Positions 1 to 64,000 of a stretch of 64,000 nt of DNA are shown piece after piece (the stretch's first letter is position 1; the number at the start of each line of letters is the position of its first letter). The position numbers were made by a program, and so were the translations under genes. Below the pieces are notes generated by a model, which saw only the letters and a list, made by a program, of their open reading frames with translations, was not told the origin of the DNA and did no database searches. The stretch comes from Tsukamurella sp. 1534 (lineage in GTDB: Bacteria; Actinomycetota; Actinomycetes; Mycobacteriales; Mycobacteriaceae). The stretch lies in assembly GCF_000312385.1 (NCBI RefSeq), contig NZ_HE997626.1, positions 1,129,571 through 1,193,570 on the forward strand. The letters are read 5' to 3'.

Positions 1-317
1 CAGCCGTTCCGGCCGGCCCGGCGCTGGCCCCCGTCTCGGCGCCCACGCCCGGCCCCAAGCCGGCCCCGGCACCGTCGGGCAACGGCGGCGGCGCCCCCGC
101 GAAGCCCGCCGCCCCCGCCACGCAGTCGGCGCCCGAGCAGACCACGCTGTTCACCAGCGCGCTCTCGTCCGCGCAGCGCGTGGCCCCGGTGGCGGCGGAG
201 ACTGCGCGGCAGCTGTCGCCCGCGATGATCGCGATCCTCGGCGGCATCGCGCTGCTGGGCAGCGGCACGTTCGTCGATTCGCTGCGCCGCGCGCACCTGC
301 GCCAGGCGCAGGCCTAG
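1..317 (+). CDS. Partial protein, Pro/Ala-rich linker plus C-terminal membrane helix
   Basis: Only the last 104 or so codons are present; the start lies before the window. The visible part opens with a low-complexity Pro/Ala/Gly linker, continues through a short Ser/Thr/Gln region, and ends with one hydrophobic segment (AILGGIALLGSG) followed by a short basic tail (SLRRAHLRQAQA). This layout suggests an exported or extracytoplasmic protein held by a C-terminal transmembrane helix, with the tail inside the cell. The function cannot be told from this piece. Its stop overlaps the stop of the convergent nuclease gene by two bases. Confidence 0.7.
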   Translation, partial: AVPAGPALAPVSAPTPGPKPAPAPSGNGGGAPAKPAAPATQSAPEQTTLFTSALSSAQRVAPVAAETARQLSPAMIAILGGIALLGSGTFVDSLRRAHLRQAQA

Positions 318-1861
318 TCGCCCACCACCGGCAGCGCGTTCACGCGCTCGCTGGACATGAATTCCCGTAGGGCCGCTGTGGCTTTCACGTCGTCCTCGTT
401 GTAGGCCAGGATCCGCTCGCGCTGCGCGGCGCGGTCCTCGTCGCCGAAGCCGGGGTCGATCCCGACGCCCACGCGGTACCACAGCATGGACGCCTCGCCG
501 CCGGCTTCCGCGTCCCGCCAATGGAATCCGGCCACGGGGGCCACCTTCTTCAGGCCGCGTCCCTCGAGCGAGAGGAACGCGTCGCCCACGGCGTCGAACA
601 TGTCCACCCACTCCGGCGACGCGATGAACTCCTCCACCGCGCGGCGGGTCGGGATGCCCGGCTCGCCCGCGAACCTGTCCGCCGACGCCAGCAGCCACTT
701 GTTCTCGGCGTTCTGCGAATAGCAGTACGCGGCGAAGGTCTTCCCCGCGGCGTGCGCCTCGGCGCGACGGTCCATGAGGAAGGCCCAGAACGCCGCGAAG
801 GAGCGCGCCTCGTCGCGGGTGGGCACGGGCTCCCAGGTGGCGAAGGGCCGGTAGCCCTCGTCGACGCCGTCGCGGCGCAGCCAGGTGCCCCAGAGGTACG
901 CGCCGTACTCCTGGTAGCTCTCCATGTCCACGTCCACCTCCACGTCGGCCCGCCGGACGCGGACCTCGGGCGTGCGGCGCACCAGCACCTGTCCGTCGCG
1001 CCAGGCGCGCGCCATGGCACGCAGGTCGGCGATCGGCACCGGCACGTCCTCGGGCTGCGGCCCGGCGTACTCCGCCAGCTGATCCACCGTGGTCACGCCC
1101 GCGGCGCGGAGCCCGGGCGCGGAGCGGCCGTCCGCCACCAGGCTCACGTCGCGCTGCGCGGCGAGCACGGACTCGCACTGCGGCCACCAGGGGCACCGCC
1201 GACATTCGGCGACCCGCACGGGCTCGGTCCCGGACGTCCCGGCGAGCACCGCCCGACGGTCCGCGAACCGCTCGTCGTACTGGGGCAGGAGCGGCCCGAT
1301 CTCGTGCACGACGATGCGCGCACCGTCGACCCCGACGCTCCCGCCGAGCAGCGACGACGAGGCGTGCCCCGCGTCCTGCAGCATCCGGGTGAGGTGCGCG
1401 AGGCGCATCTGGTCGCCCCGGTGCTGGCGCACGCGCACCGTCTCATCCGGCGCGGGCGCCCAGCGGTCCAGCGGCGACGTGGTCGCCCCCGCGCCGGGGT
1501 CGGACACCTTGTGATTGACGACGATGACGGGGACGTAGCCGTCCGCGACGCGGATCAGGAGTTCGCTGTGGCCGCGGCGGCCGTGCGCGGTGGGCAGGAC
1601 CCCGCCCCAGACGCGGTCGGCGCCGCGGGCCAGGGCGTCCAGCGTGCGGGTCACGGCGCCCTCGCCGGGCTCGATGACGGTGAGGCCCGCCATGCGGTCC
1701 CGGACCGAGGCCCGGAACACCGAGGCGGCCTCCACCCGCAGCGCCATGCCGGGGTCCGGGTCCGCGCCGGAGGCCGCGGTGTCGAGCGCCAGGCGATGGC
1801 GGCAGCCGGTGAGTGCCCGCGCGCTCACCGGGGGTGCCTGGATGCCCTGTTGTGTGTCCAC
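314..1861 (-). CDS. TM0106-family RecB-like nuclease
   Basis: 515 residues from a GTG start. The N-terminal half holds a RecB-type nuclease module (HSELLIRV near residue 98, then VVNHK near 115), and the C-terminal half an RNase H-like fold ending in YNEDDVKATAALREF. One cysteine at residue 20 and three at 220, 223 and 229 (CRRCPWWPQC) repeat the one-plus-three Fe-S cysteine layout known from Cas4 and AddB nucleases. In the RecB motif the usual VVDxK aspartate reads as asparagine here, so activity may be altered or use other residues. Members are usually annotated as putative recombinase/nuclease, probably acting on DNA ends; no biochemical role is established that I can name. It is convergent with the upstream partial gene and not in a DNA-repair cluster. 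Confidence 0.85.
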   Translation of the reverse strand: MDTQQGIQAPPVSARALTGCRHRLALDTAASGADPDPGMALRVEAASVFRASVRDRMAGLTVIEPGEGAVTRTLDALARGADRVWGGVLPTAHGRRGHSELLIRVADGYVPVIVVNHKVSDPGAGATTSPLDRWAPAPDETVRVRQHRGDQMRLAHLTRMLQDAGHASSSLLGGSVGVDGARIVVHEIGPLLPQYDERFADRRAVLAGTSGTEPVRVAECRRCPWWPQCESVLAAQRDVSLVADGRSAPGLRAAGVTTVDQLAEYAGPQPEDVPVPIADLRAMARAWRDGQVLVRRTPEVRVRRADVEVDVDMESYQEYGAYLWGTWLRRDGVDEGYRPFATWEPVPTRDEARSFAAFWAFLMDRRAEAHAAGKTFAAYCYSQNAENKWLLASADRFAGEPGIPTRRAVEEFIASPEWVDMFDAVGDAFLSLEGRGLKKVAPVAGFHWRDAEAGGEASMLWYRVGVGIDPGFGDEDRAAQRERILAYNEDDVKATAALREFMSSERVNALPVVGD

Positions 1862-1957
1862 TACCGAGCATTATCGCGGGCGGCACTGACAGTCCCGGCA
1901 GCCACGCTGTGCAATGCTGTACCGGACGGCAGTAGCTGACCTCAAGGACGTGCACAG

Positions 1958-3654: not shown

Positions 3655-4153
3655 CCTCGCCCGGCCAGGCCAGGGTGAGCTCGCCACCGTCGGGCAGGTC
3701 CTTCCACGCCGCGGCGAACGCGTCGTAGCGGGCGTACAGGCGCCGCACCAGTTCCGGCGTCAGGTCCGCGTCGTCGACGGTGCCCGGCCACGCCCGGTCG
3801 GGCGCGCGCAGGCCGCGCTCCACCTCCCACAGCGCCACGGTGAGCGACGCGAGGTACTCGGAGCGCCGCATGTCCTCGGACTGCTCCGCGGTGGGCCGCT
3901 TGGTGTTCCGGGACGCCTTCTTCCGCGCGACGGGATCGGCCGGCCAGAACAGCCCGTCGAGGCCGTCGGCGGCCGCGAGGCGCCCGAACACGCCGCCGCG
4001 CAGCCCGTCCTCGATCTCGCCGATCATGTGCGCGGCGTCGTGCGGCACCGTCGGGCTCGCGCCCGGCCCGCCCCGCGGCGCGAGCTCGGGTCCCTTCTCG
4101 CGGCGCACCAGCACCTCGTAGCCGGTCCCGCGCTTGACGAACGTGACGTCCAT
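3617..4153 (-). CDS. Conserved hypothetical cytoplasmic protein with PHDxxH motif
   Basis: 178 residues; the ATG is preceded by a strong AGGAGGG ribosome site. I recognise no named family. A PHDAAHMIGEIEDG motif at about residues 37-50 looks like a possible metal or active-site motif (His-Asp, His, Glu), and the C-terminal half is helical and charged with Trp-rich positions (ALWEVERGLRAPDRAWPG). No signal peptide or membrane segment is visible. Similar short actinobacterial proteins with a VPHD motif are known to me only as hypothetical. Its 3' end overlaps the convergent SGNH hydrolase gene. It lies 116 bases downstream of gabD2 on the same strand and could be co-transcribed with it. Confidence 0.7.
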   Translation of the reverse strand: MDVTFVKRGTGYEVLVRREKGPELAPRGGPGASPTVPHDAAHMIGEIEDGLRGGVFGRLAAADGLDGLFWPADPVARKKASRNTKRPTAEQSEDMRRSEYLASLTVALWEVERGLRAPDRAWPGTVDDADLTPELVRRLYARYDAFAAAWKDLPDGGELTLAWPGEVRGGSRKSGRRG

Positions 4154-4269: not shown

Positions 4270-5820
4270 CTAGCGGCCGATGAACTTGAGCGCCCGCACG
4301 ACGGGCGGCACCACGTTGAGGAACACGGTGCGCGGGACGCCCTTGATGCCGCCGATGCCGATGATCCGCTGCTGCGCGATGGTCTTCGACTCGCAGTACT
4401 TGAGCAGGCCCTCGGCGCCGTGCCGGCGGCCGACGCCGGAGATGCCCATGCCGCCCATCGGCGCGGCCGTGGAGCCCCACGCGGCGGCGTAGCCCTCGTT
4501 GATGTTCACGGTGCCGGCGTTGATCCGGTCCGCGATCTCCTGCGCCTGCTTGGTGGAGCCGGCGAAAACGCTGGCGTTGAGGCCGTATTCGGTGTCGTTG
4601 GCGCGCTCGATCGCCTCGTCGACCGAGTCCACCGGGTAGATGGAGACGACGGGGCCGAAGGTCTCCGAGCGGAAGCACACGGCGCCCTCGGGGACGTCCT
4701 TGAGGACGGTCGGCTCGTAGAAGAACGGGCCCAGGTCGGGGCGGGCCCTGCCGCCGGCGAGCACCGTCGCGCCCTTGGCGACGGCGTCGTCCACGTGCGA
4801 GACCACGGTGTCGATCTGCGACTTCGACGCGAGGGAGCCCATCTCGTTGGCGAAGTCGTAGCCGGCGCCCAGGGCGAGGTTCGCGGTGCGCTCGGCGAAG
4901 GCCCGGGCGAACTCGTCGGCGATCTCCCGCTCCACGTAGATCCGCTCGATCGAGATGCACAGCTGGCCCGAGTTGGAGAACGCGGCGCGCGCGGCACCGT
5001 CGGCCGTGTTCGCGATGTCGGCGTCCTTGGTGACCACCATGGGGTTCTTGCCGCCCAGCTCGGCGGAGAAGCCGATGAGCCGCTTGCCGCACTGCTCGGC
5101 GAGGGTGGCACCGGTCGCGGAGGAGCCGGTGAACATGAGGTAGTCGGCGCGCTCGACGATCGCCGTACCCACCACGCCGCCGGGGCCCGGGACCACGGCG
5201 AACAGGTCGCGCGGGAGGCCGGCGCGGTAGAGCAGCTCGACGGCGGCGAGGGCGCAGTACGGGGTCTGCGAATCCGGCTTGAGCACCACCGCGTTGCCGG
5301 CGGCGAGCGCGGCCACGCCGTCGGAGACGGCCAGGGTCAGCGGGTAGTTCCACGGCGCGATCACGCCGACCACGCCCTTGGGCTGGTAGCGCACGCGGGT
5401 GTTGGTGAACACCGGGAGCATGCCGGCGGTGTTCTTCTGCGCCAGCAGCTTCGGCGCGTTCTTGCCGTACCAGCGGGCGGTCATGGCGACGTCCAGGGTC
5501 TCCTCCTGGGCGTACTGGCGGGCCTTGCCGGTCTCGAGCTGCGCCATGTCCATCAGCTCGGTGCGGTGCTCGTTGACCAGGTCGGCGAAGCGCAGCAGCA
5601 CCTTGGCGCGGTCCTTGGGGCTGCGGGCGGCCCACTGGCGCTGAGCCAGGCGGGCGCGGGTGAAGGCGAGCTCGACGTCCTCGGCGGTGCCGACGGGGAT
5701 CGTGGTCACCTTCTCGCCGCTGAACGCCTCGAGTACATCGCGGGACTCCCGCTGGTCGGGGTGGTCGATCGCGGAGAGCGCGCGGAGACGGTCGAACGTG
5801 GCCTGGGTGGGTGCTGGCAT
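4270..5820 (-). CDS. gabD2: Succinate-semialdehyde dehydrogenase, GabD2 type
   Basis: 516 residues, full length for the aldehyde dehydrogenase superfamily. Visible landmarks are IAPWNYP near 154 (oxyanion Asn), FTGSSATG in the Rossmann region near 230, catalytic Glu254 in SAELGGKNP and nucleophile Cys288 in NSGQLCIS. The sequence around the cysteine and the C-terminal tail (YCESKTIAQQR...GVPRTVFL) match the mycobacterial GabD2 type (Rv1731-like), which oxidises succinic semialdehyde to succinate with NAD(P)+. This feeds the GABA shunt or the 2-oxoglutarate bypass. A second enzyme, GabD1, is encoded beside gabT near 59 kb, so this copy may serve a different flux. Confidence 0.88.
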   Translation of the reverse strand: MPAPTQATFDRLRALSAIDHPDQRESRDVLEAFSGEKVTTIPVGTAEDVELAFTRARLAQRQWAARSPKDRAKVLLRFADLVNEHRTELMDMAQLETGKARQYAQEETLDVAMTARWYGKNAPKLLAQKNTAGMLPVFTNTRVRYQPKGVVGVIAPWNYPLTLAVSDGVAALAAGNAVVLKPDSQTPYCALAAVELLYRAGLPRDLFAVVPGPGGVVGTAIVERADYLMFTGSSATGATLAEQCGKRLIGFSAELGGKNPMVVTKDADIANTADGAARAAFSNSGQLCISIERIYVEREIADEFARAFAERTANLALGAGYDFANEMGSLASKSQIDTVVSHVDDAVAKGATVLAGGRARPDLGPFFYEPTVLKDVPEGAVCFRSETFGPVVSIYPVDSVDEAIERANDTEYGLNASVFAGSTKQAQEIADRINAGTVNINEGYAAAWGSTAAPMGGMGISGVGRRHGAEGLLKYCESKTIAQQRIIGIGGIKGVPRTVFLNVVPPVVRALKFIGR

Positions 5821-5966
5821 GGGGCCAGGCTACCCGCTTGTTGACGGTGCCTCAATAGCGCGCCCCGTCGCGAATCTTCGCTGCAGAGGCCCGTCGCGGC
5901 CATAGTGGTCGCGTCCCGCCCGAGACGCGCATTTTCGCCACGGATCGGGGTCGATAGGATCGCCTC

Positions 5967-6694: not shown

Positions 6695-7553
6695 GCCCGA
6701 CTATCCTCGACCCGTGCTGCTCGAGCTCGCAGGTGTGCGCACCCACGTGGCGGTCGACCCGCCCACGGGCCCGGTCTCGGGCCCCCCGGTGGTGCTCTGC
6801 TCCGGCCTCGCCGGCAATTGGTTCGACTGGGACGCGTGCACCGCGCTGTTGTCCGCGTCGCGCACCGTCGTGCGCCCGGACCGGCCGGGGTACGGCCTCT
6901 CCGACCCGTGGCCCGACGGTGCCCTCCCCACCCTGGAGTCGGAGGTCACGCGCCTGCGGGAGCTGCTGGACGCTCTGGAGCTGCCCACCGCGGTGGTGTG
7001 CGGGCACTCGATGGCCGGCTTCTACGTGGAGGCGTTCGCGCGGCTGTATCCGGAGCGGACGGCCGGCATGCTCCTACTGGACGGCAGCGTCGAGGTGCGG
7101 CCGCCGTGGACGCTCCCCGCCCGGGTGCGCGACGGTCTGCTGTTGCGCACGGCCGATGCGGCGGCGGCCGCGCACATCAACCGGGCGGGGCCGCTCGCGC
7201 ACCGGCTGCTCGCGGGTTCGCCCGCGCCGGAGCGGTTCACGCCGATCCTCTCCTCCGAGGCCTACCTGCGGGCGGCGCTGCTGGAGAACGGGCAGTACCC
7301 GGTTCTCGCGCGGGGGCTGTCGGACCTGCGGGGGCGGAAGCCGCTGCGCGTGGGGCTCCCCGCGACGGTGGCGGCCGCCTACACCGGACGGCCCACGCCG
7401 TGGGCGGCGTCGTGGCTGCGGCGGCAGCGGGAACTGGCGGACCGGCTGGGAGCGCGGTTCGCGGTGATCAGCCCCAGCGGGCACCACGCGATGGTGGACC
7501 AGCCGGCGCAGACGGCCGCGCTGATCCTCGACGTCGACCGGGCGGGCGGCTAG
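6693..7553 (+). CDS. Alpha/beta hydrolase
   Basis: 286 residues from ATG; an in-frame GTG 21 bases later (VLLELAGVRTH) is an equally plausible start and would free the overlap with the divergent S4 gene. Alpha/beta-hydrolase signs are VVLCSGLAGNWFDW (oxyanion region), DRPGYGLSD, the nucleophile elbow CGHSMAGF with Ser106, and a C-terminal SPSGHHAMVDQP supplying the His. A mainly helical cap lies between. There is no signal peptide, so a cytoplasmic esterase or a C-C-bond hydrolase acting on a small molecule is likely. No partner gene hints at the substrate. Confidence 0.82.
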   Translation: MPDYPRPVLLELAGVRTHVAVDPPTGPVSGPPVVLCSGLAGNWFDWDACTALLSASRTVVRPDRPGYGLSDPWPDGALPTLESEVTRLRELLDALELPTAVVCGHSMAGFYVEAFARLYPERTAGMLLLDGSVEVRPPWTLPARVRDGLLLRTADAAAAAHINRAGPLAHRLLAGSPAPERFTPILSSEAYLRAALLENGQYPVLARGLSDLRGRKPLRVGLPATVAAAYTGRPTPWAASWLRRQRELADRLGARFAVISPSGHHAMVDQPAQTAALILDVDRAGG

Positions 7554-8473: not shown

Positions 8474-8502
8474 GCGTTCGTCATCGGTGTCCGACGGTGC
8501 GC

Positions 8503-9961
8503 CTACCGCTGCGGTGCGGTGGTGGGCACGATCGGCGCGGGCAGCGCCGACTCGCCCATGAGGAACCGGTCGACGGCGGCGGCGGCGCTGCGGCCCTCGG
8601 CGATGGCCCACACGATGAGCGACTGGCCGCGGCCGGCGTCGCCGGCGACGAACACGCCGGGCACCGTCGACTGGAAGTCGTCGCCGCGCGCCACGTTGCC
8701 GCGGTCGGAGTACTCGACGCCCAGCTTGTCGAGGAGGTCGTCGCGCTGCGGGCCGACGAAGCCCATCGCGAGCAACACGAGATCGGCCTCGAGGGTGAAG
8801 TCGGAACCCTCGACCTTCTCGAACTTCCCGGCCTCCATCGTCACCTCGTAGGCCTTGAGCCCGGTGACCTTTCCGTCCTCGCCGACGAACTGCTCGGTGC
8901 TGACGGAGAACACGCGCTCGCCGCCCTCCTCGTGGGCCGAGCTGATGCGGTACATCAGCGGGTAGGTCGGCCACGGGGTGGATTCGGCGCGCTCACGCGG
9001 CGGGACCGGCATGATCTCGAACTGGTGCACGCTCTCGGCGCCCTGGCGCAGCGAGGTGCCCAGGCAGTCCGCGCCGGTGTCGCCGCCGCCGATGATGACG
9101 ACCTTCTTGTCCTTGGCGTGGATCGGCGGCAGGCCGTCCCCGTCGGTCACGTCGTCGCCCACCGCGGCGCGGTTGGCCCACGGCAGGAACTCCATGGCCT
9201 GGTGGATGCCGTCCAGCTCGCGGCCGGGGATCGGCAGGTCGCGGCCCACGGTGGAGCCGTTGGCCAGGACCACGGCGTCGAAGTCCTCGCGGAGCTGCTC
9301 GACGGTGACGTCGACGCCCACGTTGACGCCGGCCTTGAAGATCGTGCCCTCGGCGTTCATCTGGGCGAGGCGGCGGTCGATGTGCCGCTTCTCCATCTTG
9401 AACTCGGGGATGCCGTAGCGCAGCAGGCCGCCGATGCGGTCGGCCCGCTCGAACACGGTCACGGTGTGGCCGCCGCGCGTGAGCTGCTGCGCCGCGGCGA
9501 GTCCCGCGGGGCCGGAGCCGATCACGGCGACCTTCTTGCCCGTGAGGGTGGTCGGGTGCTCGGGCGAGACCCAGCCCTCGTCGAAGGCCTTGTCGATGAG
9601 CTCGACCTCGACCTGCTTGATGGTCACCGGGTCCTGGTTGATGCCCAGGACGCAGGAGGCCTCGCACGGCGCGGGGCACAGCCGGCCGGTGAACTCCGGG
9701 AAGTTGTTCGTCGCGTGCAGGCGCTCGATGCCGTCGCGCCACCGGTCCTTGTAGACCAGGTCGTTCCACTCGGGGATCAGGTTCCCGAGCGGGCAACCGT
9801 TGTGGCAGAACGGGATGCCGCAGTCCATGCACCGGGAGGCCTGCTTGCGCAGGGTGCCCCCGTCGAACGGCTTGTAGACCTCGTTCCAGTCCAGCAGTCG
9901 GAGCGGGACCGGCCGGCGGACCGGCAGCTCACGCGAGGTGTTCTTCAGAAAGCCCTGGGGA

Positions 9962-9969: not shown

Positions 9970-14569
<4,600 letters not shown>

Positions 14570-17644: not shown

Positions 17645-17962
17645 TCAGCCGAGGAGCAGCAGCGTGAGGTCAGCCGGGACATCCGCGGAGACGGCGTGCA
17701 CCTCGCGGGCGTCGATGTGCAGGACCGCACCCGGCGTCAGCTCCATCCGCTCCCCCGCGACGGCCACCGTCACCACGCCGCGCAAGACGGACAGCAGAAT
17801 CGGTTTGGGCGCGTTGTGATCCGCGAGTTCCTGCCCGGGGCGGAAGGTGAGTTGAATGATCGTCGCTCCGGCGACCGAAGCCAGCCGCACGACGTGTGGC
17901 CGCGCACCGTCGGCCTCCTCCCCCGTAGCGAGACCCTCGACCAGGGACCAGGTTCCGCTCAT
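17645..17962 (-). CDS. Small cupin-domain protein
   Basis: 105 residues forming one cupin barrel: FRPGQELADHNAPKPILLSVLRGVVTVAVAGERMELTPGAVLHIDAREVHAVSA. The first cupin motif has a single clear His (DHNAPKP) and the second has REVHAV, so a metal site may be reduced. It starts one base after the stop of the GbsR/MarR gene (TGA-T-ATG), so the two are almost certainly one transcript and possibly coupled. It could act as a small-molecule sensor or a simple isomerase; the substrate is unknown. Confidence 0.8.
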   Translation of the reverse strand: MSGTWSLVEGLATGEEADGARPHVVRLASVAGATIIQLTFRPGQELADHNAPKPILLSVLRGVVTVAVAGERMELTPGAVLHIDAREVHAVSADVPADLTLLLLG

Positions 17963-49190: not shown

Positions 49191-50228
49191 ATGGAGTTCC
49201 GACGACTGGGCCGCTCCGGCCTACTGGTGCCCGAGCTGAGCTTCGGTGCGGGCACGTTCGGCGGGCGCGGCCCGCTGTTCGGCGCGTGGGGCAGCACCGA
49301 CGTGGCCGAGGCCCGCGAGATCGTGGACGTCGCACTCGACGCGGGCATGACCATGTTCGACACCGCGGACGTCTACTCGGACGGCGCCTCGGAGGAGGTG
49401 CTCGGCGCGGCGCTGGCCGGCCGCCGCGATCGCGTCCTGATCTCGACGAAGGCGGGCCTGCCCACCGGCGACGGCCCCGGCGACGCGGGCACCGGCAGGG
49501 GCCGCCTCATCGACGCCGTGGAGGCGGCGCTGCGGCGGTTGCGGACCGACCGGATCGACGTGTTCCAGTTGCACGCCCACGACGCGGGCACGCCCGTCGA
49601 GGAGGTGCTGTCCACGCTGGACCGGCTGGTGGCGGACGGGAAGATCCGGTACGTGGGCGTCTCCAACTTCGCCGGGTGGGAGCTCATGAAGTCGCTCGCC
49701 GCCGCCGATCGCCACGGCTGGAACCGGTACGTGGTGCACCAGGTCTACTACTCGCTGATCGGCCGCGACTACGCGCGCGAGCTGATGCCGCTCGGCGCGG
49801 CCGAGGGCGTGGGGGCCATGGTGTGGAGCCCGCTCGGGTGGGGCCGGCTCACGGGCCGGATCCGCCGGGGCGCGCCGCTGCCCGAGGCCAGCCGGCTGCA
49901 CCGGACCGCCGAGTTCGGGCCGCCGGTGGACGACGAGCTGCTGTTCTCCGTGGTGGACGTGCTGGACGAGATCGCCGCCGAGACCGGGCACACCGTGCCG
50001 CAGGTGGCGCTCAACTGGCTGCTGCGCCGGCCGACGGTGTCCTCGGTGATCGTGGGCGCGCGCACCGTCGAGCAGTTGCGGCAGAACCTCGGCGCGGTGG
50101 GCTGGCGCCTGGACGCGGAGCAGATCGCCCGACTGGACGCGGCGAGCGCGACCGAGGCCCCGTACCCCTACTTCCCGTACCGGCGGCAGGAGGGCTTCGC
50201 GCGCGTCAATCCGCCGCTGGCCGGCTGA
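49191..50228 (+). CDS. Aldo/keto reductase
   Basis: 345 residues with a perfect AGGAGG site seven bases before the ATG. The TIM-barrel tetrad is visible: Asp57 (MFDTADVY), Tyr62, Lys87 (ISTKAG) and His128 (FQLHAHD). The C-terminal GARTVEQLRQNL loop binds NADPH. It reduces aldehydes or ketones, with a preference that cannot be told from sequence. Expression is probably controlled by the divergent TetR protein. Confidence 0.92.
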   Translation: MEFRRLGRSGLLVPELSFGAGTFGGRGPLFGAWGSTDVAEAREIVDVALDAGMTMFDTADVYSDGASEEVLGAALAGRRDRVLISTKAGLPTGDGPGDAGTGRGRLIDAVEAALRRLRTDRIDVFQLHAHDAGTPVEEVLSTLDRLVADGKIRYVGVSNFAGWELMKSLAAADRHGWNRYVVHQVYYSLIGRDYARELMPLGAAEGVGAMVWSPLGWGRLTGRIRRGAPLPEASRLHRTAEFGPPVDDELLFSVVDVLDEIAAETGHTVPQVALNWLLRRPTVSSVIVGARTVEQLRQNLGAVGWRLDAEQIARLDAASATEAPYPYFPYRRQEGFARVNPPLAG

Positions 50229-50261: not shown

Positions 50262-50891
50262 CTACAGGACGCCGGCCGCGAGCATCGTGAGCGTGCTGCG
50301 CATCGACGCGATGACGGGCTCGGCCGAGAGAGTGGGGTCCACGGCGCGCTGGATCCCCAGGCCGATGCCGGCGCTGAGCAGCAGATCCGCCGTGTCGCCC
50401 AGTTCGTACAGATCGGCCTCGGCGTCGGCGATCGCGTCGTCCGGCGCGTCGCCGCGCAGGAGTGCGCGCAGCATGTCCACGACGGTGCGCTGCGCCGCGT
50501 TGCGCAGGTCCACGACCATCGCGCGCAGGTGCGGGTCGTTGCGGGAGACGGTGACGAACTCCAGCTCGAGCATCGTCCAGCCCACGTCGCCGACGGTGCG
50601 CTCGACCCATTCGGCGATCCGGTCGATGCGGTCCTGCAGGTCGCCGGGGGCGGTGGCCAGTTCGGTGAGCTGGCCGATCTTGTCGTCATGGAGCGCGGCG
50701 AGCACCTCGCGGCACAGGTTGGGCTTGTCCACGAAGTTGGAGTAGACCGCGCCCTTGGAGTACCCGGCGCGGTCGGCGATGTCCTCGAGCGATGCCGCCG
50801 TGTAGCCGACTTCCAGGAACCGCGCCCGCGCCGCGGTCAGCAGGTCGGCGCGCGTCTGCGCGCGCTGTTCCGCCCGGGTCAGCCTCGCCAT
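50262..50891 (-). CDS. TetR-family regulator of the SDR-patatin-monooxygenase operon
   Basis: 209 residues with HTH LLTAARARFLEVGYTAASLEDIADRAGYSKGAVYSNFVDKPNLCREVL. The ATG has no ribosome site but follows a TATTCT hexamer by six bases, so it may be leaderless. The gap to the divergent SDR gene holds GTATTCGGATAC (50931-50942, 10 of 12 palindromic) and an inverted AATACCG/CGGTATT pair, which are candidate operators. Local repression of the three-gene operon is the natural reading. Confidence 0.87.
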   Translation of the reverse strand: MARLTRAEQRAQTRADLLTAARARFLEVGYTAASLEDIADRAGYSKGAVYSNFVDKPNLCREVLAALHDDKIGQLTELATAPGDLQDRIDRIAEWVERTVGDVGWTMLELEFVTVSRNDPHLRAMVVDLRNAAQRTVVDMLRALLRGDAPDDAIADAEADLYELGDTADLLLSAGIGLGIQRAVDPTLSAEPVIASMRSTLTMLAAGVL

Positions 50892-51858: not shown

Positions 51859-52772
51859 CCCGGGCCCTCGTCATCGGCTGCGGCGGCACCATCGGCGGCG
51901 CGTGGACGATCGCCGCCCTCGCGGCGCTGGAGGAGCAGTCGGGTTGGGACGTGCGGGACGCCGCCGTGTTGCAGGGCACCTCCGCCGGTTCGGAGATCAT
52001 CACGATGCTGGCCGGGTACTCGGTGGCGGACCTCGTGGCGATGCAGGAGGGGCGCTCGGAACATCCCGTGCTGCAACGACATCTGGCCGCCACCCCGCCG
52101 TCGCTGCCGCGGCTTCCGTTCTCGCTCCCGTCGGCGCCGTCCACGCTGTGGAGCCGCCGCGGCGGGCACGCGCCGCTCACCGGGATCGCGCCGCGCGGCC
52201 GCGGCGACGCGGGCTGGCTGCAGGAACTGGCCGACGCGGTCGCCGGGCCCGGCGGGCCTGTGCCCCCGAGGGCGCGGATGGTGGCGTACGAACCCGCCTC
52301 GGGGGAGCGCGTCGCGTTCGGCGCGCCGGGTGCGCCGAAGGCCACGGTCGGAGACGCGCTCCGCGCGTCCTGGGCCATCCCGGCGTGGATGCCGCCCGTC
52401 GAGGTGGAGGGCCGCACGTTCGTCGACGGGGGCGCCGCGTCGACCGCCTCGGTCGACCTGGTCTCCCCCGCCGACGCGGACGAGATCGTCGCGGTGGTCT
52501 CCATGGCCTCCGCACCCGGCGTCCGCGGCCCGGGCCTCGGGGGCCTGCTGGAGCACACCGCGCTGCGCCGACCCATGTCGTCCGTGTTCTGGCAGGAGGT
52601 GGCCGTGGCGAGGGCCCGGGGCCAGAAGGTCACGGTGATCGCGCCCGACGGTGCCGACCTGGCCGGCCTCGGTGCGAACTTCATGGCGCGGGGACGCCGC
52701 GCGCGGGCCTTCGAGGCCGCGCGCCGCACCGCGCCCGCCGCCGTGCGCCGCGGCCTGGAGGCGGCGCGATGA
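51855..52772 (+). CDS. Patatin-like phospholipase/esterase
   Basis: 305 residues. The oxyanion loop GCGGTIGGAW (9-18), nucleophile Ser43 in GTSAG and catalytic Asp191 in FVDGGAA form the complete patatin dyad. The region between is shorter than in plant patatins. It is coupled by four-base overlaps to the SDR before and the monooxygenase after (both ATGA), so the three are made together. It could hydrolyse the ester formed by the monooxygenase, or a membrane lipid. Confidence 0.9.
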   Translation: MTRALVIGCGGTIGGAWTIAALAALEEQSGWDVRDAAVLQGTSAGSEIITMLAGYSVADLVAMQEGRSEHPVLQRHLAATPPSLPRLPFSLPSAPSTLWSRRGGHAPLTGIAPRGRGDAGWLQELADAVAGPGGPVPPRARMVAYEPASGERVAFGAPGAPKATVGDALRASWAIPAWMPPVEVEGRTFVDGGAASTASVDLVSPADADEIVAVVSMASAPGVRGPGLGGLLEHTALRRPMSSVFWQEVAVARARGQKVTVIAPDGADLAGLGANFMARGRRARAFEAARRTAPAAVRRGLEAAR

Positions 52773-55369: not shown

Positions 55370-56880
55370 TCGTCCTCGCGCGCCAGGAGGGCGAGCAGCA
55401 GTTCGGCGCGCACCCGGGCGGAGCGCAGGTCCACGCCCAGCACCTCCTCGGCCTTCGCGACGCGGGCGCGCACGGTGTGCCGGTGCGCGCCGGCGGCCGC
55501 GGCGGCGCCCTCCCACTGGCCGTTGTTCTCGAGGAACGCGCGCAGCGCGGGCAGCAGCGCTCCGCCGTGTCGGGCGTCGTGCGCACGCAGCGGGTCGAGC
55601 AGCGCGCGGTCCAGGCCGGCCAGCACGTCCCGGGCCCCGTCGTCGGCCAGCAGGGTGCGGCCGGCGAGCGCCGCGGATTCGACGAGCGGTCCGCCCGGGC
55701 GGGCGGAGCGCGCGGCCAGGGTGCCCGCGGCCGTGGCTTCGGCGACGGCGCCCGCGGGATGCGAGGAACCGAGCCCCACGCGCAACCGCGAACGCAGGCC
55801 GCGCGGTACCCGCGCGAGGAGCGCCTCGGCGATCACCGCATCGTCGTCGGCCCCGAGTAGCGCGACCACCCCGCCCGCCGCGTCCACGACGAAGGCCGGC
55901 CGCCCCGCATCGTCGAGCGCGGTGCGGAGGGCGGCGACGACGTCGTCCGCGGCGCCGGTCCCGCCGATCGCCACCAGCGCCCGCACCCCGTGGGCGTCGG
56001 CGGCGTCGGCCACGAGCCGCGCCACTCCCTCCGCGGCGCCGCCCGGCGAGAGCACGAGCCGCAGGGCCTCCGCGTTCATCCGCCACTGCACGGCGCGCAG
56101 CCGGCGGGGCTTCTCGAAGTCCAGGGCGAGAAGCGAATTCGCGTGTCCGATGAGCACGTGGTCCACGGGCGCGGGTTCGCGCGCGAGCACAACGGCGAGG
56201 TGCCCGTATCCGCGGTCGCCGACGCGGACGGGCTGCGTGACCACGGTGTCCGCGCCGCGGGGTGCGGACGCCGACGACGCCGGGTGCGCCCGGGCCTGGT
56301 CGCCCACGGCGCGGCCGGACTCCTCCGCGGCCCCCGCCGGGTGGGCGAGCACCACCCGGCCGCCACGATCCAGCAGGAGGGCCGCGCCCCCGCATCCCGC
56401 GGCGAGTTCGCGCAGGGTGGCCGACGGTCCGCCGGACACCGCCGCGCGCGTCATCCGCTGCTGGGCCCGGGCGGCCGCCGCCTGCGACCGGTTCTCCCGC
56501 CGCGCCAGCTCGTCGATCACGGTGTGCGCCACCGCGACGAACGGGGTGGGCAGCGGCACGTCGACCAGGGGCAGCCCGACGTCGTCGGCGGCGGCGATCA
56601 GGTCCGACGGTGCGCTGTCCCGCGAAACCCCGACGCCGAAGCCCAACGCCGAGACGCCCCGTGCCGCGAGCCGCTGCACGTAGTCGCGGCAGCCGGCACC
56701 GTCGGGCGGGATGCCGATGCCCGTGGTCAGGAGCATCTCCCCGCCCGACAGCCAGGGGGTGGGGTCGGCCAGCTCGGTGGTCATGACGAACGTGACGGCG
56801 CCGCCGACCCCCGCCTCGCCCGCGCGCAGCCGCAGGCCGAGGCTCCGCTGCGCGAGCAGCCACCGCACCGTGACGGCCAT
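55366..56880 (-). CDS. PucR-family transcriptional regulator
   Basis: 504 residues. The N-terminal PucR domain begins VRWLLAQRSLGLRLRAGEAGVGGAV and contains the usual ELADPTPWLSGGEMLLTTGIG. A GAF-like middle region follows, and the C-terminal helix-turn-helix is FLENNGQWEGAAAAAGAHRHTVRARVAKAEEVLG. Family members activate purine or amine catabolism. Here it is divergent from gabT-gabD1 with 90 bases between them, so it most likely senses GABA or a degradation product and controls that operon. I chose the ATG at the start of the PucR domain; the frame stays open far upstream but without coding sense. Confidence 0.9.
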   Translation of the reverse strand: MAVTVRWLLAQRSLGLRLRAGEAGVGGAVTFVMTTELADPTPWLSGGEMLLTTGIGIPPDGAGCRDYVQRLAARGVSALGFGVGVSRDSAPSDLIAAADDVGLPLVDVPLPTPFVAVAHTVIDELARRENRSQAAAARAQQRMTRAAVSGGPSATLRELAAGCGGAALLLDRGGRVVLAHPAGAAEESGRAVGDQARAHPASSASAPRGADTVVTQPVRVGDRGYGHLAVVLAREPAPVDHVLIGHANSLLALDFEKPRRLRAVQWRMNAEALRLVLSPGGAAEGVARLVADAADAHGVRALVAIGGTGAADDVVAALRTALDDAGRPAFVVDAAGGVVALLGADDDAVIAEALLARVPRGLRSRLRVGLGSSHPAGAVAEATAAGTLAARSARPGGPLVESAALAGRTLLADDGARDVLAGLDRALLDPLRAHDARHGGALLPALRAFLENNGQWEGAAAAAGAHRHTVRARVAKAEEVLGVDLRSARVRAELLLALLAREDD

Positions 56881-58419: not shown

Positions 58420-59877
58420 GTGAACGTCACCGATCTGTTGAACTCCGTCCCCACCGGCTTGTGGCAGGGCGGCCGCTCCGCCCCGAGCGAGTCCGGCCGC
58501 ACCTTCGAGGTGCTCAACCCCGCCACCGGTCGGGTGCTCACCTCGGTCGCGAACGCGACACCCGCCGACGCGCGAGCAGCGCTCGACGCCGCCTGCTCGG
58601 TGGCCGACGAGTGGGCCGCGACCCCGCCGCGGCGGCGCGCGGAGATCCTCCGCGCCGCGTTCGACGCCGTGACCGCCCGCGCGGAGGACTTCGCGCTCCT
58701 GATGACCCTGGAGATGGGCAAGGTGCTGCCCGAGAGCCGCGGCGAGGTGGCGTACGGCGCCGAGTTCCTGCGCTGGTTCTCCGAGGAGGCCGTTCGGATC
58801 GGCGGCCGCACCGCCACCGCACCCGCGGGCACCGGCGAGATCGCCGTCGTCAAGGAGCCCGTGGGCCCGTGCCTGGCGATCACGCCGTGGAACTTCCCGC
58901 TCGCCATGGGAACCCGCAAGATCGGCCCGGCGCTCGCCGCCGGCTGCACCATGATCGTCAAGCCCGCCGAGGACACCCCGCTCACCATGCTGCTGCTGGC
59001 GCGGGTGTTCACCGAGGCGGGCCTCCCGCCCGGGGTCCTCTCGGTACTGCCGACCCTGGACGCGCCGGCCGTGGTCGCCGAGCTGATGAACGATTCTCGG
59101 CTGCGCAAGGTCTCGTTCACCGGCTCCACCGCCGTCGGCAAGAAGCTACTGGCGCAGGCCTCGGAGAACGTGCTGCGCACATCGATGGAGCTGGGCGGCA
59201 GCGCCCCGTTCCTGGTCTTCGACGACGCCGACCTCGACAGGGCCGTCGACGGGGCGATGCTCGCCAAGATGCGCAACGGCGGCGAGGCGTGCACGGCCGC
59301 CAACCGGATCCTGGTGCAGAACGGGATCCGCGAGGCCTTCACCGCGGCCCTCACCGAGCGGGTGGCGGCGATGGAAGTCGGCCCGGGCTGGGAGGATTCG
59401 TCCACGATCGGACCGATCATCACCGAGAAGCAGCGCTCCTCCATCGCGGCGCTGGTCGACGACGCCGTCGCCGCGGGGGCGATCGTCCGCACGGGCGGCG
59501 GCAAGGTCGACGGTGCCGGGTTCTTCTTCGAACCCACCGTCCTGGAGGCGATTCCCGACGGTGCGCGGATCCGCCGGGAGGAGATCTTCGGCCCCGTGGC
59601 CGCGATCGTCGGCTTCGACACGGAGGACGAGGGTGTGGCGCTGGCCAACGACACCGAGTACGGCCTCGCCGCCTACTTCTTCACCGAGAACATCGGCCGC
59701 GCGCAGCGCGTCGCCCGGCGCCTGCAGGCCGGCATGGTGGGCGTCAACCGCGGCGTCATCTCCGATCCCGCGGCACCGTTCGGCGGGATCAAGCAGTCCG
59801 GCCTCGGATCGGAGGGCGGCAGCGAGGGCATCGCGGAGTACCTGAACACCAAGTACATCGCGCTCCCGCCCGCCTGA
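58420..59877 (+). CDS. gabD1: Succinate-semialdehyde dehydrogenase, GabD1 type
   Basis: 485 residues from a GTG. Catalytic Glu257 (TSMELGGSAPF) and Cys291 (NGGEACTAANRI), the ITPWNFP oxyanion Asn and FTGSTAVGKKL cofactor region are intact. It belongs to the NAD(P)-dependent SSADH I type and turns succinic semialdehyde from GabT into succinate for the citric acid cycle. The position behind gabT is decisive for function. A different enzyme of the same reaction, GabD2, is encoded at 4-6 kb. Confidence 0.92.
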   Translation: MNVTDLLNSVPTGLWQGGRSAPSESGRTFEVLNPATGRVLTSVANATPADARAALDAACSVADEWAATPPRRRAEILRAAFDAVTARAEDFALLMTLEMGKVLPESRGEVAYGAEFLRWFSEEAVRIGGRTATAPAGTGEIAVVKEPVGPCLAITPWNFPLAMGTRKIGPALAAGCTMIVKPAEDTPLTMLLLARVFTEAGLPPGVLSVLPTLDAPAVVAELMNDSRLRKVSFTGSTAVGKKLLAQASENVLRTSMELGGSAPFLVFDDADLDRAVDGAMLAKMRNGGEACTAANRILVQNGIREAFTAALTERVAAMEVGPGWEDSSTIGPIITEKQRSSIAALVDDAVAAGAIVRTGGGKVDGAGFFFEPTVLEAIPDGARIRREEIFGPVAAIVGFDTEDEGVALANDTEYGLAAYFFTENIGRAQRVARRLQAGMVGVNRGVISDPAAPFGGIKQSGLGSEGGSEGIAEYLNTKYIALPPA

Positions 59878-59881
59878 CGGA

Positions 59882-60247
59882 TCAGGTGAGGCGGGGGAAC
59901 TTCAGGTACGCGAGGCCCAGGACGTCGATCGCGATGTAGCCGAGCAGCGCGGCGGCGGCCGCGCCGCCGAGGATCACGGCCGCGCGCCACCACTGCCGCC
60001 GCGGGGTGCAGTGCAGCATCCACCCGATACCGACGAAGCTCACTACCGCGCCGAACACCGCCACCGGGTAGACGGCGAAGCCGGGATCGGCGGCGATCCG
60101 GGTCATCCGGGCGACCGCGCCCAGGGCCACCGAGACCGCGAGCGTCGCCACGAGCACCCGCAACCACGGGTCGCCGGGCGCGGCCACGAGCCGGTAGCCG
60201 AGCACCGCGCTCACCGCTCCGCCGACCCCTATCGCGAGCACCGTCAT
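59882..60247 (-). CDS. Small four-helix membrane protein
   Basis: 121 residues with four hydrophobic helices (MTVLAIGVGGAVSAVLGYRL, WLRVLVATLAVSVALGAV, VYPVAVFGAVVSFVGIGWML, AAVILGGAAAAALLGYIAIDVLGL) and short charged loops. The ATG overlaps the previous gene's stop (ATGA), so the pair is translationally coupled. I do not recognise either family; together they look like a small two-subunit membrane unit. Confidence 0.7.
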   Translation of the reverse strand: MTVLAIGVGGAVSAVLGYRLVAAPGDPWLRVLVATLAVSVALGAVARMTRIAADPGFAVYPVAVFGAVVSFVGIGWMLHCTPRRQWWRAAVILGGAAAAALLGYIAIDVLGLAYLKFPRLT

Positions 60248-60691: not shown

Positions 60692-62209
60692 TCAGTACGC
60701 GCCGTCCGAGGTGAGCACCGTCCGGAACGTGCGGGCGATGATCCCGATATCGGTGCCGAGCGACCAGTTCTCGACGTAGCCCACGTCGATCCGGATCGAC
60801 TCGTCCCACGAGAGGTCGGAGCGGCCGCTGACCTGCCACGCACCGGTGACACCGGGCTTGACCAGGAGCCGCCGCCGCATCACCGCCGGGTACTGGTCCA
60901 CCTCGTGCGCCAGTGCCGGCCGCGGGCCCACCACGGCCATGTCGCCGCGGAGCACGTTGAAGAACTGCGGCAGCTCGTCGAGGCTGTAGCGGCGGATGAT
61001 CCTGCCCACCTTGGTGACCCGCGGATCGTCCTTGACCTTGAACAGGGGCCCCGCGCCCATGTCGTCACCGGACAGCCGGTCCCGGCGGGTATCGGCGTCG
61101 ACGTACATGCTGCGGAACTTGACCATCCGGAACGGGCGGCCGTCGGCGCCGATCCGCTCCGCGCGGTAGAACACCGGGCCACGGCTGTCGACGCGGATCG
61201 CGATCGCGATGACCAGCATGACCGGGGCGAGCGCGGCGAGCCCGCCGCCGGCGACGGCGAGGTCGAGCATCCGCTTGCCCGGACCGAAGGAGCGGCGCGG
61301 TCGCGGATGCGCCACGTGCACCATCGGCGTGCCCCCGATGTCCTGGTGCGCCAAGCGATGGCCGGCGACGTCCGCGAGACCGGTGGTCACCACGAGTTCG
61401 ACGCCCATGGCCGCGAGGCGCCACGCGAGGTCTCGGACAGCGTCCGGGCCGAGGGCGTCGGTGGCCGTGAGCATCACGACGCCCGCACCGGTCTCGCGGA
61501 CTGCGGCCTCCACCTCGCGGTCGCTGCCCGCCACCGGGATCCGCGTGCCCCGTACCTCGATCGCGTCGGCCAGCGCGGCGTCACCGGCGGGCAGGCACAC
61601 GCCCACGATCCGGGAGTGGGAGGCGGTGATGAGCGCGCGCGCCGTGGCCGTCGCGGCCCCGTAGCCGCCGACCACGAGGGTGGGCGCGACCGCCGCCGCG
61701 CGGCCGTCGCCGCGGAGGTGTCGCCGCCACCACAGGCGGCTGAGCAGCGTTCCGACCAGCAGCACCGGGCCGACCACCACGACCAGCGCCCGCGGCAGCA
61801 GGTGGGGGAAGAACAACGCGACCACGACGAGCGGGCCGAAGACGGTGCGCACGGTGCCGATCACGCGCCGCAGCTCGGCCGCGCCCATCCCGAGGGCGGG
61901 CACCGCCAGGGGCGCGTTGCGGGTGAGCAGGTGGAACCAGACGGCCACCGCGACCGTGGTGCTCACCAATACCACCGGTGCGGATGCGTGCTCGGCCAGG
62001 CCGCAGAACAGGCCGGCTGCACCGGCGAGGATCGCGATCATGAGGTCGACGCCGGTGATGGCCCGCTCCAGGCGCGCCCGGCCGGCCCGCGCGTCCGGGT
62101 CGACGACGGTGCGCGGAGCCTCGGCGACGGACTCGTCCACGACGGGGTCCGCTACGCGGGCGGGGCCGCTACCGGTGGACGGCGCACCGGTCATGTAATC
62201 GATCGACAT
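60692..62209 (-). CDS. Polyprenyl glycosylphosphotransferase (WbaP/WcaJ type)
   Basis: 505 residues. Four N-terminal helices, a Rossmann-like CoA-binding middle domain (PTLVVGGYGAATATARALI) and a fifth helix (MLDLAVAGGGLAALAPVMLVIAIAI) lead to the catalytic region: GPVFYRAERIG, MVKFRSMYVDAD, YSLDELPQFFNVLRGDMAVVGPRP and VKPGVTGAWQVSGRS. The enzyme moves a sugar-1-phosphate from a UDP-sugar onto a polyprenyl phosphate, the first step of exopolysaccharide or glycan synthesis. The methyltransferase and nucleotidyltransferase genes on the other side of the intergenic region fit this pathway. Confidence 0.92.
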   Translation of the reverse strand: MSIDYMTGAPSTGSGPARVADPVVDESVAEAPRTVVDPDARAGRARLERAITGVDLMIAILAGAAGLFCGLAEHASAPVVLVSTTVAVAVWFHLLTRNAPLAVPALGMGAAELRRVIGTVRTVFGPLVVVALFFPHLLPRALVVVVGPVLLVGTLLSRLWWRRHLRGDGRAAAVAPTLVVGGYGAATATARALITASHSRIVGVCLPAGDAALADAIEVRGTRIPVAGSDREVEAAVRETGAGVVMLTATDALGPDAVRDLAWRLAAMGVELVVTTGLADVAGHRLAHQDIGGTPMVHVAHPRPRRSFGPGKRMLDLAVAGGGLAALAPVMLVIAIAIRVDSRGPVFYRAERIGADGRPFRMVKFRSMYVDADTRRDRLSGDDMGAGPLFKVKDDPRVTKVGRIIRRYSLDELPQFFNVLRGDMAVVGPRPALAHEVDQYPAVMRRRLLVKPGVTGAWQVSGRSDLSWDESIRIDVGYVENWSLGTDIGIIARTFRTVLTSDGAY

Positions 62210-62709: not shown

Positions 62710-63957
62710 ATGAAGTGCCGTCTGTGCGGTTCGCCGCGACTGCGCAGCGTCGTCGACCTGGGCGCCACGCCGCCCTGCGAGAAGTTCCTCACCGCCGACG
62801 AGCTGGACCTGCCCGAGCCCACGTACCCGTTGCACCTGCGGATCTGCGAGGAGTGCCTGCTGCTGCAGATCCCGGCGCTGATCCTCCCGGAGGAGACGTT
62901 CTCCGAGTACGCGTACTTCTCGTCGTACTCGGCCAGCTGGGTCGATCACGCGCGCCGTTTCGTGCACGGCGCGATCGAACGCCTGGAACTACGCCCCGAG
63001 CAGCTGATCGTCGAGGTGGCCAGCAACGACGGCTACCTCCTGCAGCACGCCGTGGCCGCCGGCGTCCGGTGCCTGGGCATCGAACCGTCGGTCAACGTCG
63101 GCGCCGCCGCGCGCGAGAAGGGCGTGCCCACCGTGACCGCGTTCCTCGACGAGGACACCGCGGCCGCCGTGCGCGCGGAGCACGGGCCGGCGAACCTGGT
63201 GGTCGCGAACAACGTGTACGCCCACATCCCCGACCTGCTCGGCTTCACGAAGGGCCTGCGGGGCCTCCTGGCCGACGACGGCTGGCTCAGCATCGAGGTG
63301 CACCACGCGCTCCCGCTCGTCGCCGAGGGCCAGTTCGACACCGTCTACCACGAGCACTTCCAGTACTACACCGTGCTCTCCGCGCAGCGGGCGCTCGCGA
63401 CAGCCGGCCTCACGGTGGTCGACGTGGAGGCGATCCCCACGCACGGGGGCTCGATCCGCCTGTGGGCCAGGCCCGACGGTGCGGCCGGCGCACCGTCGGA
63501 ACGCGTGGCCGAACTGCTGCGGGAGGAGGCCGAGGCCGGCCTGCACGAGGTGTCCGGCTACGCCGGACTGCAGGCGAGCGCCGAACGGGCCCGGCAGGAA
63601 CTGCTGCGCTTCCTGCTCGACTGCAGGGCACAGGGCAAGCGGGTCGCCGGGTACGGCGCGCCCGGCAAGGGCAACACGTTGCTCAACTTCTGCGGGATCC
63701 GCACGGACCTCCTCGAGTACACCGTGGACCGGAACCCGTACAAGCACGGACGATTCACGCCCGGCGCGCGGATCCCGATCCACGAGCCGGAGCGCCTCGA
63801 CGCCGATCGGCCCGATGTGGTGGTGGTCCTCCCCTGGAACCTCGAGGCCGAGATCACCGAGCAGCTGCGCCCGCTCGTCGACCGGGGAACGGAGCTCGTC
63901 TACCCGATGCCCCGACTGCACGCAGCGCGGCCGGCCGCCGCTGTACCGGAAGCCTGA
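62710..63957 (+). CDS. Sugar C-methyltransferase-like SAM enzyme
   Basis: 415 residues. An N-terminal zinc-binding domain has CRLCG and CEEC cysteine pairs. The SAM-binding domain follows (LIVEVASNDGYLLQHAVAAGVRCLGIEPS), then YHEHFQYYT and a C-terminal Methyltransf_14-like domain with AGYGAPGKGNTLLNF and YTVDRNPYKHGRF. This is the layout of NDP-hexose C-methyltransferases (TylC3/NovU-type) and related surface-sugar enzymes. It is divergent from the glycosylphosphotransferase and followed at once by a nucleotidyltransferase gene, so a modified sugar for a surface glycan is likely. Confidence 0.9.
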   Translation: MKCRLCGSPRLRSVVDLGATPPCEKFLTADELDLPEPTYPLHLRICEECLLLQIPALILPEETFSEYAYFSSYSASWVDHARRFVHGAIERLELRPEQLIVEVASNDGYLLQHAVAAGVRCLGIEPSVNVGAAAREKGVPTVTAFLDEDTAAAVRAEHGPANLVVANNVYAHIPDLLGFTKGLRGLLADDGWLSIEVHHALPLVAEGQFDTVYHEHFQYYTVLSAQRALATAGLTVVDVEAIPTHGGSIRLWARPDGAAGAPSERVAELLREEAEAGLHEVSGYAGLQASAERARQELLRFLLDCRAQGKRVAGYGAPGKGNTLLNFCGIRTDLLEYTVDRNPYKHGRFTPGARIPIHEPERLDADRPDVVVVLPWNLEAEITEQLRPLVDRGTELVYPMPRLHAARPAAAVPEA

Positions 63958-63967
63958 GGAGGCGACG

Positions 63968-64000
63968 ATGAAGGTGGTCCTGTTCTGCGGCGGCTACGGA
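63968..64000 (+). CDS. Start of a sugar nucleotidyltransferase gene (partial)
   Basis: Only eleven codons are in the window: MKVVLFCGGYG. The strand-loop with CGGYG is the start of the NTP-binding motif of glucose-1-phosphate cytidylyl- or thymidylyl-type enzymes. GAGGAGG, which overlaps the methyltransferase stop codon, is its ribosome site, so the two are one operon. It would supply the nucleotide sugar for the methyltransferase; the exact nucleotide cannot be told. Confidence 0.6.
   Translation, partial: MKVVLFCGGYG

Follow-up and report, generated by a model that had tools for sequence, protein, structure and literature searches.

A genus-wide DNA word of Tsukamurella that may serve as an uptake signal

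Introduction

The 64,000-nucleotide stretch of the Tsukamurella sp. 1534 genome that we analyzed (contig NZ_HE997626.1, positions 1,129,571 to 1,193,570; referred to below as the window) is densely populated by a nine-base word, CGACGGTGC, which consists of the octamer GACGGTGC preceded by a C. This word exceeds what composition and codon use account for, possesses a sharply defined core (GACGGT), lacks polarity, is conserved at synonymous positions, and is in excess on the chromosome, on a plasmid and on one lytic phage. We tentatively propose that Tsukamurella actively maintains it throughout the genus as a DNA recognition word, with a behaviour like that of the DNA uptake sequences (DUS) of Neisseriaceae and the uptake signal sequences (USS) of Pasteurellaceae. 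Somewhat more doubtful is the wider implication that a genus of the mycolic-acid group of actinobacteria recognizes its own DNA by a nine-base word, which would place an uptake signal outside the Neisseriaceae and Pasteurellaceae and would imply self-recognizing natural transformation.

Abundance of the word in the window

An exact count yielded 59 copies of GACGGTGC in the window (G+C 0.72), 30 on the forward strand and 29 on the reverse strand (reverse complement GCACCGTC). The initial annotation had counted more than 45 copies by eye, about equal in both orientations and mostly within a longer word, against about 5 expected at random, and these statements were borne out: 47 of the 59 octamers carry the 5' C and hence represent CGACGGTGC, and the expectation for independent and identically distributed bases is 5.5. 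CGACGGTGC is the commonest 9-mer of the window, its single-base neighbours occurring 0 to 16 times each on both strands. Markov models of orders 1 to 6 predict 9.2, 10.2, 13.4, 19.6, 35.5 and 52.2 octamers; the high orders already include the word's own counts. We also used a codon-aware null, in which synonymous codons are shuffled within the amino acid and the next-base context (300 shuffles in the window), on genes called by a custom GC-frame script. The called genes of the window hold 52 octamers versus 15.1 ± 3.5 under this null (maximum 27 in 300 shuffles), and 42 copies of CGACGGTGC versus 8.6. The excess of the octamer is thereby confirmed as real.

All copies of GACGGTGC in the window are given below with their coordinates, strand and the presence of the 5' C that completes CGACGGTGC.

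69..76, minus, with 5' C, outside called genes
1320..1327, minus, with 5' C
1435..1442, minus, without 5' C
3776..3783, plus, with 5' C, outside called genes
4045..4052, minus, with 5' C, outside called genes
4761..4768, minus, with 5' C
4994..5001, minus, with 5' C
5843..5850, plus, without 5' C, outside called genes
6862..6869, minus, with 5' C
6915..6922, plus, with 5' C, in frame Asp-Gly-Ala
8493..8500, plus, with 5' C, outside called genes
8661..8668, minus, with 5' C
10709..10716, plus, with 5' C
11426..11433, plus, with 5' C
14013..14020, minus, with 5' C
14203..14210, minus, without 5' C
14376..14383, minus, without 5' C
14921..14928, plus, with 5' C
15867..15874, plus, with 5' C
17295..17302, minus, with 5' C
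17904..17911, minus, with 5' C
19287..19294, minus, with 5' C
22282..22289, minus, without 5' C
22533..22540, plus, with 5' C, antisense to its gene, Ala-Pro-Ser
28521..28528, plus, with 5' C
28596..28603, minus, with 5' C
29514..29521, plus, with 5' C
30325..30332, minus, with 5' C, outside called genes
31111..31118, minus, with 5' C
34259..34266, plus, with 5' C
35501..35508, minus, with 5' C
36239..36246, minus, without 5' C
36264..36271, plus, without 5' C
36836..36843, minus, with 5' C
36955..36962, plus, with 5' C
38376..38383, plus, with 5' C
40111..40118, plus, with 5' C, in frame Asp-Gly-Ala
42220..42227, minus, without 5' C
42902..42909, plus, with 5' C
45696..45703, minus, with 5' C
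46556..46563, plus, with 5' C
46972..46979, plus, without 5' C
47087..47094, plus, with 5' C, antisense to its gene, Ala-Pro-Ser
48004..48011, minus, with 5' C
48117..48124, plus, with 5' C
50062..50069, minus, with 5' C
50481..50488, plus, with 5' C
50592..50599, plus, with 5' C
52647..52654, plus, with 5' C
56606..56613, plus, with 5' C
56696..56703, minus, with 5' C
59509..59516, plus, with 5' C, in frame Asp-Gly-Ala
59557..59564, plus, with 5' C
60238..60245, minus, without 5' C, outside called genes
60715..60722, minus, without 5' C
61841..61848, plus, without 5' C
62105..62112, plus, with 5' C
63475..63482, plus, with 5' C, inverted pair with 63490
63490..63497, minus, with 5' C, inverted pair with 63475

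The copies at 5843, 8493 and 30325 lie outside called genes, as the initial annotation had it. Its view that copies in genes force Asp-Gly-Ala proved right in part: the triplet is read at 6915, 40111 and 59509, and the copies at 22533 and 47087 encode Ala-Pro-Ser because the called gene there runs on the opposite strand.

Distribution and anatomy of the word in the genome

The 4.50-Mb genome of Tsukamurella sp. 1534 carries CGACGGTGC 2,466 times, 1,245 of the copies being forward and 1,221 reverse. This amounts to about one copy every 1.8 kb; the reversed control string occurs 72 times (38 forward and 34 reverse). A 704-kb sample of this genome, 529 kb of which were called as coding, holds 298 copies in its coding part versus 66.5 under the codon null, a 4.5-fold excess; among all 9-mers in 198 kb of coding DNA, the word ranks first (131 versus 27.1). 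The proposal of a genome-wide signal is supported, and the two conditions that the initial annotation had named as refuting it did not hold: a codon-aware model predicted the observed count neither in the window nor in the larger coding sample, and the excess extends far beyond the window. Of the 298 copies in genes, 156 are sense and 142 antisense; 112 specify Asp-Gly-Ala, and six of the six reading frames are used.

Single-base changes reveal a sharp core. Every variant altered within GACGGT is less than half as frequent as the word itself, and most are near expectation, those above it being CGACGGGGC (74 versus 49.6) and CGACGTTGC (16 versus 8.8). Positions 1, 8 and 9 are softer, with several variants clearly exceeding expectation. 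Three near-matches are depleted, namely CGACGGCGC (123 versus 171.7 expected), CGACCGTGC (22 versus 44) and CGACGGAGC (10 versus 25). The flanking context is weak, with a G at -3, a pyrimidine at -1, and C or G after the word, both in this genome and in that of the congener G001.

The orientation of the word is random. Over 33 stretches, 190 copies face one way and 205 the other (heterogeneity chi-square 21.9, 32 degrees of freedom, p 0.91), and across the same stretches orientation is not significantly correlated with GC skew, TA skew or gene strand. The spacing of the copies shows a coefficient of variation of 0.95. Copy density is weakly correlated with the G+C content of the stretch (Spearman 0.32, p 0.07); the stretch with the lowest G+C content (C1:200001-220000, 0.625) holds 2 copies.

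The word is also in excess between genes. In 248 short intergenic gaps (28 kb), to which this test was confined because the density outside genes in the sample includes uncalled genes, we found 18 copies versus 1.1 predicted by a Markov-2 model, and 200 permuted control words had a mean of 0.7 and a maximum of 11 in these gaps. Sorted by type, divergent gaps (7.2 kb) hold 1 copy, tandem gaps (15.7 kb) hold 12 and convergent gaps (5.1 kb) hold 5.

Other words with unusual counts were noted in this genome. In a sample made up of the window and loci L009-L020, GGATTCG/CGAATCC exceeds the codon null (71 versus 29.3 in 198 kb of coding DNA) and has no polarity (112 and 111 copies on the two strands of the 704-kb sample), and CGCGCGCG falls strongly below the null (41 versus 101.7). 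The 9-mer AAGCCGAAG occurs 43 times in 20 kb at locus L014 (C1:1000001-1020000), which looks like a repeat-rich region or protein.

Conservation between species

Orthologues of 33 window genes were codon-aligned from up to 15 species (397,533 bases); the comparisons count species pairs, which are not independent of each other. Where both species have the same amino acid, the GGT codon is retained in 80.8% of pairs inside the word versus 21.5% outside, and GCA in 73.7% versus 22.9%. Higher retention inside the word was likewise seen for GAC, TCG, CCG, GTC, ACC, GTG and ACG; CGT (26.3% versus 25.2%) and CAC (94.7% versus 94.2%), with 57 pairs each, showed none. Read by position, wobble conservation is raised at word positions 1, 2, 4, 5, 7 and 8, and not at 3 and 6 (57 pairs each). 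With the amino acids held fixed, the entire word is identical in 1,538 of 2,149 pairs versus 569.5 expected, a ratio of 2.70. This places it first by z among 1,349 words (median ratio 1.13), two overlapping words having a higher ratio; the possible precursor CGACGGCGC remains under expectation (ratio 0.72). A cruder test with fewer genes and free amino acids gave 0.608 for the word versus 0.395 for the pooled permuted controls. Among the 206 control words that occur 15 times or more, the upper quartile stands at 0.602, so that the value for the word lies just above it and is by itself not decisive.

Spread across the genus and beyond

Each of the 15 sampled congeners carries between 827 and 4,002 copies of CGACGGTGC, whereas nine genomes from nine other genera of the family have 52 to 669. 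The comparison with related genera recommended by the initial annotation was extended to the order (298 genomes, 3 of them Tsukamurella), where the maximum among the 295 genomes of other genera is 948. In a survey of 216 genomes of the phylum, the densest genome that is not a Tsukamurella, G375, reaches about 0.27 per kb (453 copies in 1.7 Mb), all densities being counts divided by rounded genome sizes. Within Tsukamurella the density ranges from about 0.17 (G007) and about 0.27 (G008) up to 0.82 per kb, and it exceeds 0.4 in 14 of the 16 genomes. The two lowest congeners, G007 and G008, overlap the highest outsiders by density; the G007 draft looks contaminated because its first four contigs have a G+C content of 0.32. 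On the side of the outsiders, G375, G509 and G340 are small genomes (1.7 Mb) of one genus outside the order, with 172-453 copies.

Codon nulls were also applied to single genomes. The congeners G001 (159 versus 30.4) and G008 (54 versus 19.7) lie well above the null, which nearly fits the outgroup chromosomes (30 versus 25.0); in stretches from the family's other genera the word is mildly enriched, with a Markov-2 ratio of about 2. In a tree of two neighbouring proteins, which we take to be glutamate synthase subunits, G008 stands outside 14 other species with full support, followed by Tsukamurella sp. 1534 outside the remaining 13 (G007 was left out). Since G008 is above the codon null as well, the excess probably predates the split of this lineage. 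A dialect of G008 was considered and dropped, as last-base variants are raised about equally in G000, G001 and G008 and only the exact word is weaker in G008. A 9-mer survey of named loci of other genera for further dialects covered little sequence per genome, and dialects may exist elsewhere.

No account of an over-represented octamer or motif in Tsukamurella was found in the open-access full text searched; the 8- and 9-base words as whole strings matched only texts on another subject.

Plasmid, phages and other replicons

Against the codon null, the word is in excess on the chromosome of Tsukamurella sp. 1534 (302 versus 65.4) and on its phage-like contig C4 (14 versus 4.3). The type strain of T. 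paurometabola possesses a chromosome of 4,379,918 bases and a plasmid of 99,806 bases, according to an excerpt of its genome report (PMC3156402), and both exceed the null (30 versus 10.8 and 37 versus 8.5, respectively). The lytic phage TPA2 carries 17 copies in 50 kb (15 versus 4.4 under the codon null), and five TPA2-related phages of Gordonia and Mycobacterium have 8 in 120 kb (6 versus 5.0). A search for viral contigs related to C4 and TPA2 provided one that matches the C4 query at 100% (13 words in 17 kb), one with no assigned host (9 words in 21 kb, ratio 4.7), and TPA2 itself.

The presence of the word on phages might be held against an uptake signal. We set this objection aside after counting USS on phages of the Pasteurellaceae, a family with a proven uptake signal. 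Haemophilus-type USS occur 16 times in 30 kb of HP1 (0.28 expected) and 15 times in 40 kb of Aaphi23 (0.47 expected), and SuMu (35 kb) has none of these and carries 6 Actinobacillus-type USS (0.25 expected). Phages of a family with an established uptake signal hence carry it as well, albeit unevenly.

The word is patchy on the T. paurometabola plasmid (loci L213 and L239-L242), which has 9 copies in its first 60 kb (G+C 0.65-0.66) and 35 in its last 40 kb (0.71-0.72). Contig C4 (49,433 bases; loci L020, L199 and L200) has 13 copies in its first 20 kb and 3 in the next 20 kb; it encodes an integrase, an RNase_T exonuclease, a DUF2303 protein and a match to N6/N4 methyltransferases. Matches of C4 to plasmids amounted to one short match in one search and to none in another.

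Candidate machinery and methyltransferases

ComEC was found in all 28 genomes examined, including those of genera without the excess. An ATPase of the T2SSE/Tad type scored above the family cut-off in 15 of the 16 Tsukamurella genomes, the match in G008 having an internal stop, and was not found in the fragmented G007. RecC, the one RecBCD subunit that the search covered, occurs in each of the 16 Tsukamurella genomes and in 11 of the 12 examined from other genera, which lack the excess. ComEC, T2SSE and RecC would permit uptake or a RecBCD-type recombination; they leave the restriction to one genus unexplained.

Of three methyltransferase families searched for, not one is found throughout the 16 Tsukamurella genomes, a test that did not extend to Type I and other families. 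PF00145 is present in 14 (not found in G011 and G015), PF01555 in 4 (not found in 12), and PF07669 in 11, one of them below the family cut-off (not found in G000, G002, G006, G009 and G013). Each family is absent from some Tsukamurella genomes in which the word reaches about 1,900 copies or more. Judged by these families, a conserved methyltransferase behind the word is less likely.

Weighing an uptake signal against other explanations

Strand symmetry, density, synonymous conservation, excess between genes and occurrence on some phages jointly match uptake signals best. In such a scheme, the uptake machinery would include a DNA-binding protein, at the surface or in the periplasm, with a preference for DNA that bears the word. 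Homologous recombination of incoming DNA from the same species would copy the word into the genome and would repair broken copies, so that it would accumulate wherever the protein sequence allows. Of the roles that the initial annotation had listed, the uptake tag thus fits best; a segregation motif of the KOPS kind is contradicted by the random orientation, and a methylase-linked site finds no support in the three families tested.

Several observations weigh against an uptake signal. Nothing in our analysis proves uptake, and the receptor is putative. No paper on natural transformation of Tsukamurella was found in the open-access full text, and uptake sequences in conjunction with Actinobacteria gave few matches in the open-access literature. 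ComEC and the T2SSE ATPase do not account for the excess, since genera that lack it possess them as well. The phages TIN2/TIN3 carry 5 copies in 100 kb (ratio 2.5), with 1 versus 1.5 under the codon null for TIN2, and 32.7 kb around nine prophage capsid genes from 6 of the 16 Tsukamurella genomes hold 3 (ratio 1.4). Wider stretches of 20 kb around 7 of these 9 genes, chromosomal flanks included, contain 40 copies (37 versus 11.7 in genes). No clear dialects were seen in the sequence sampled, where G008 differs only by a weaker preference for the last C. Inverted close pairs of uptake words are common, albeit not universal, in the terminators of Neisseria and Haemophilus; the Tsukamurella word shows no excess of them, with 7 inverted versus 10 direct among 17 pairs less than 60 bp apart, and on the same count a terminator hairpin element was rejected. 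Furthermore, the word on a lytic phage would also fit a role inside the cell.

Such a role is the strongest competitor, unlikely as we judge it to be. The word would then be a non-polar site for a protein that acts within the cell, either a Chi-like attenuator for RecBCD or AdnAB, or the site of a nucleoid or self-recognition factor that would shield resident DNA as well as plasmids and adapted phages. The joint excess on the chromosome, the T. paurometabola plasmid, TPA2 and C4 is what one would expect of it, as are the universal presence of RecC in Tsukamurella and the conservation of the word in genes common to the genus. RecC is, however, almost as frequent in the genomes of other genera that lack the excess, and the word is about 2.7 times denser than the figure quoted for Chi in an excerpt of PMC8022716.

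Rather improbable in our view is a drive like that discussed for HIP1 (highly iterated palindrome 1), in which repair or methylation converts near-matches into the word without any use as a signal. The depletion of CGACGGCGC, CGACCGTGC and CGACGGAGC points in this direction, plasmid and some phage DNA share the word, and HIP1 itself offers a precedent (PMC4390886, in excerpt). Yet the word is not palindromic, no tested methyltransferase family is universal, and conservation is raised at six wobble positions instead of one hot position.

That the word arises simply from the G+C content, the choice of codons and frequent dipeptides (Asp-Gly and Thr-Val) is very improbable. The order-6 Markov model nearly fits the window and the mild excess in other genera would suit this explanation, but codon-aware nulls fall short 3.4-fold for the octamer in the window and 4.5-fold for the 9-mer in 529 kb, while nearly fitting the outgroups; moreover, rare codons are used and conserved, and the gaps between genes show the excess as well. 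Unless the gene calls were badly wrong, these results refute an artefact of composition or codon use. Least credible of all is a polarized segregation or replication motif of the kind of the FtsK orienting polar sequences (KOPS) or the architecture imparting sequences (AIMS), for the word is genome-wide, short and over-represented as such motifs are, but its orientation is random between and within the 33 stretches, and the heterogeneity test refutes polarized Chi- or KOPS-like motifs down to a polarity of about 65:35, a threshold that is an estimate.

The restriction of the excess to a single genus, with none in the sampled sister genera, provides a clean system: relatives lack the excess, the species of the genus show it to graded degrees, and one phage and one plasmid carry the word in excess as well. 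If CGACGGTGC is an uptake signal, relatives of Mycobacterium would possess self-selective transformation, which bears on gene movement in that group. If it is not, the word points to an undescribed process of DNA recognition or repair.

Comparison with known systems

To our knowledge, there are only a few bacterial families in which the function of a hyper-abundant, strand-symmetric recognition word is clear. KOPS and AIMS differ from the Tsukamurella word in that the latter has no strand skew. Chi of RecBCD is similar in length (8-9 bp) and over-representation, and RecC is present in Tsukamurella; unlike Chi, quoted at 1 per 5 kb in an excerpt of PMC8022716, the word lacks polarity, is denser (1 per 1.8 kb) and is restricted to one genus although other genera share RecC. 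HIP1 (GCGATCGC) of cyanobacteria is, in the excerpted text of PMC4390886, a hyper-abundant word of debated function and a model for a drive by repair or methylation. The two are alike as words on the scale of an octamer that are kept in great abundance across related genomes. HIP1 is palindromic and is associated with two orphan methyltransferases, whereas CGACGGTGC is asymmetric, is not its own reverse complement, and is accompanied by none of the three tested families throughout the genus.

Closest are DUS and USS. Neisseria recognizes its DUS through the receptor ComP; Tsukamurella is a high-G+C actinobacterium with no known receptor or competence, and its word has no excess of inverted close pairs and, in the sequence sampled, no clear dialects. 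DUS dialects number 2,245-5,918 copies per genome, according to an excerpt of PMC3630211. Like DUS and USS, CGACGGTGC is a short, non-palindromic word that is present in thousands of copies and in both orientations, occurs within and between genes, is found across an entire clade and is conserved there, and, as our USS counts illustrate, is also carried by some phages of the host group.

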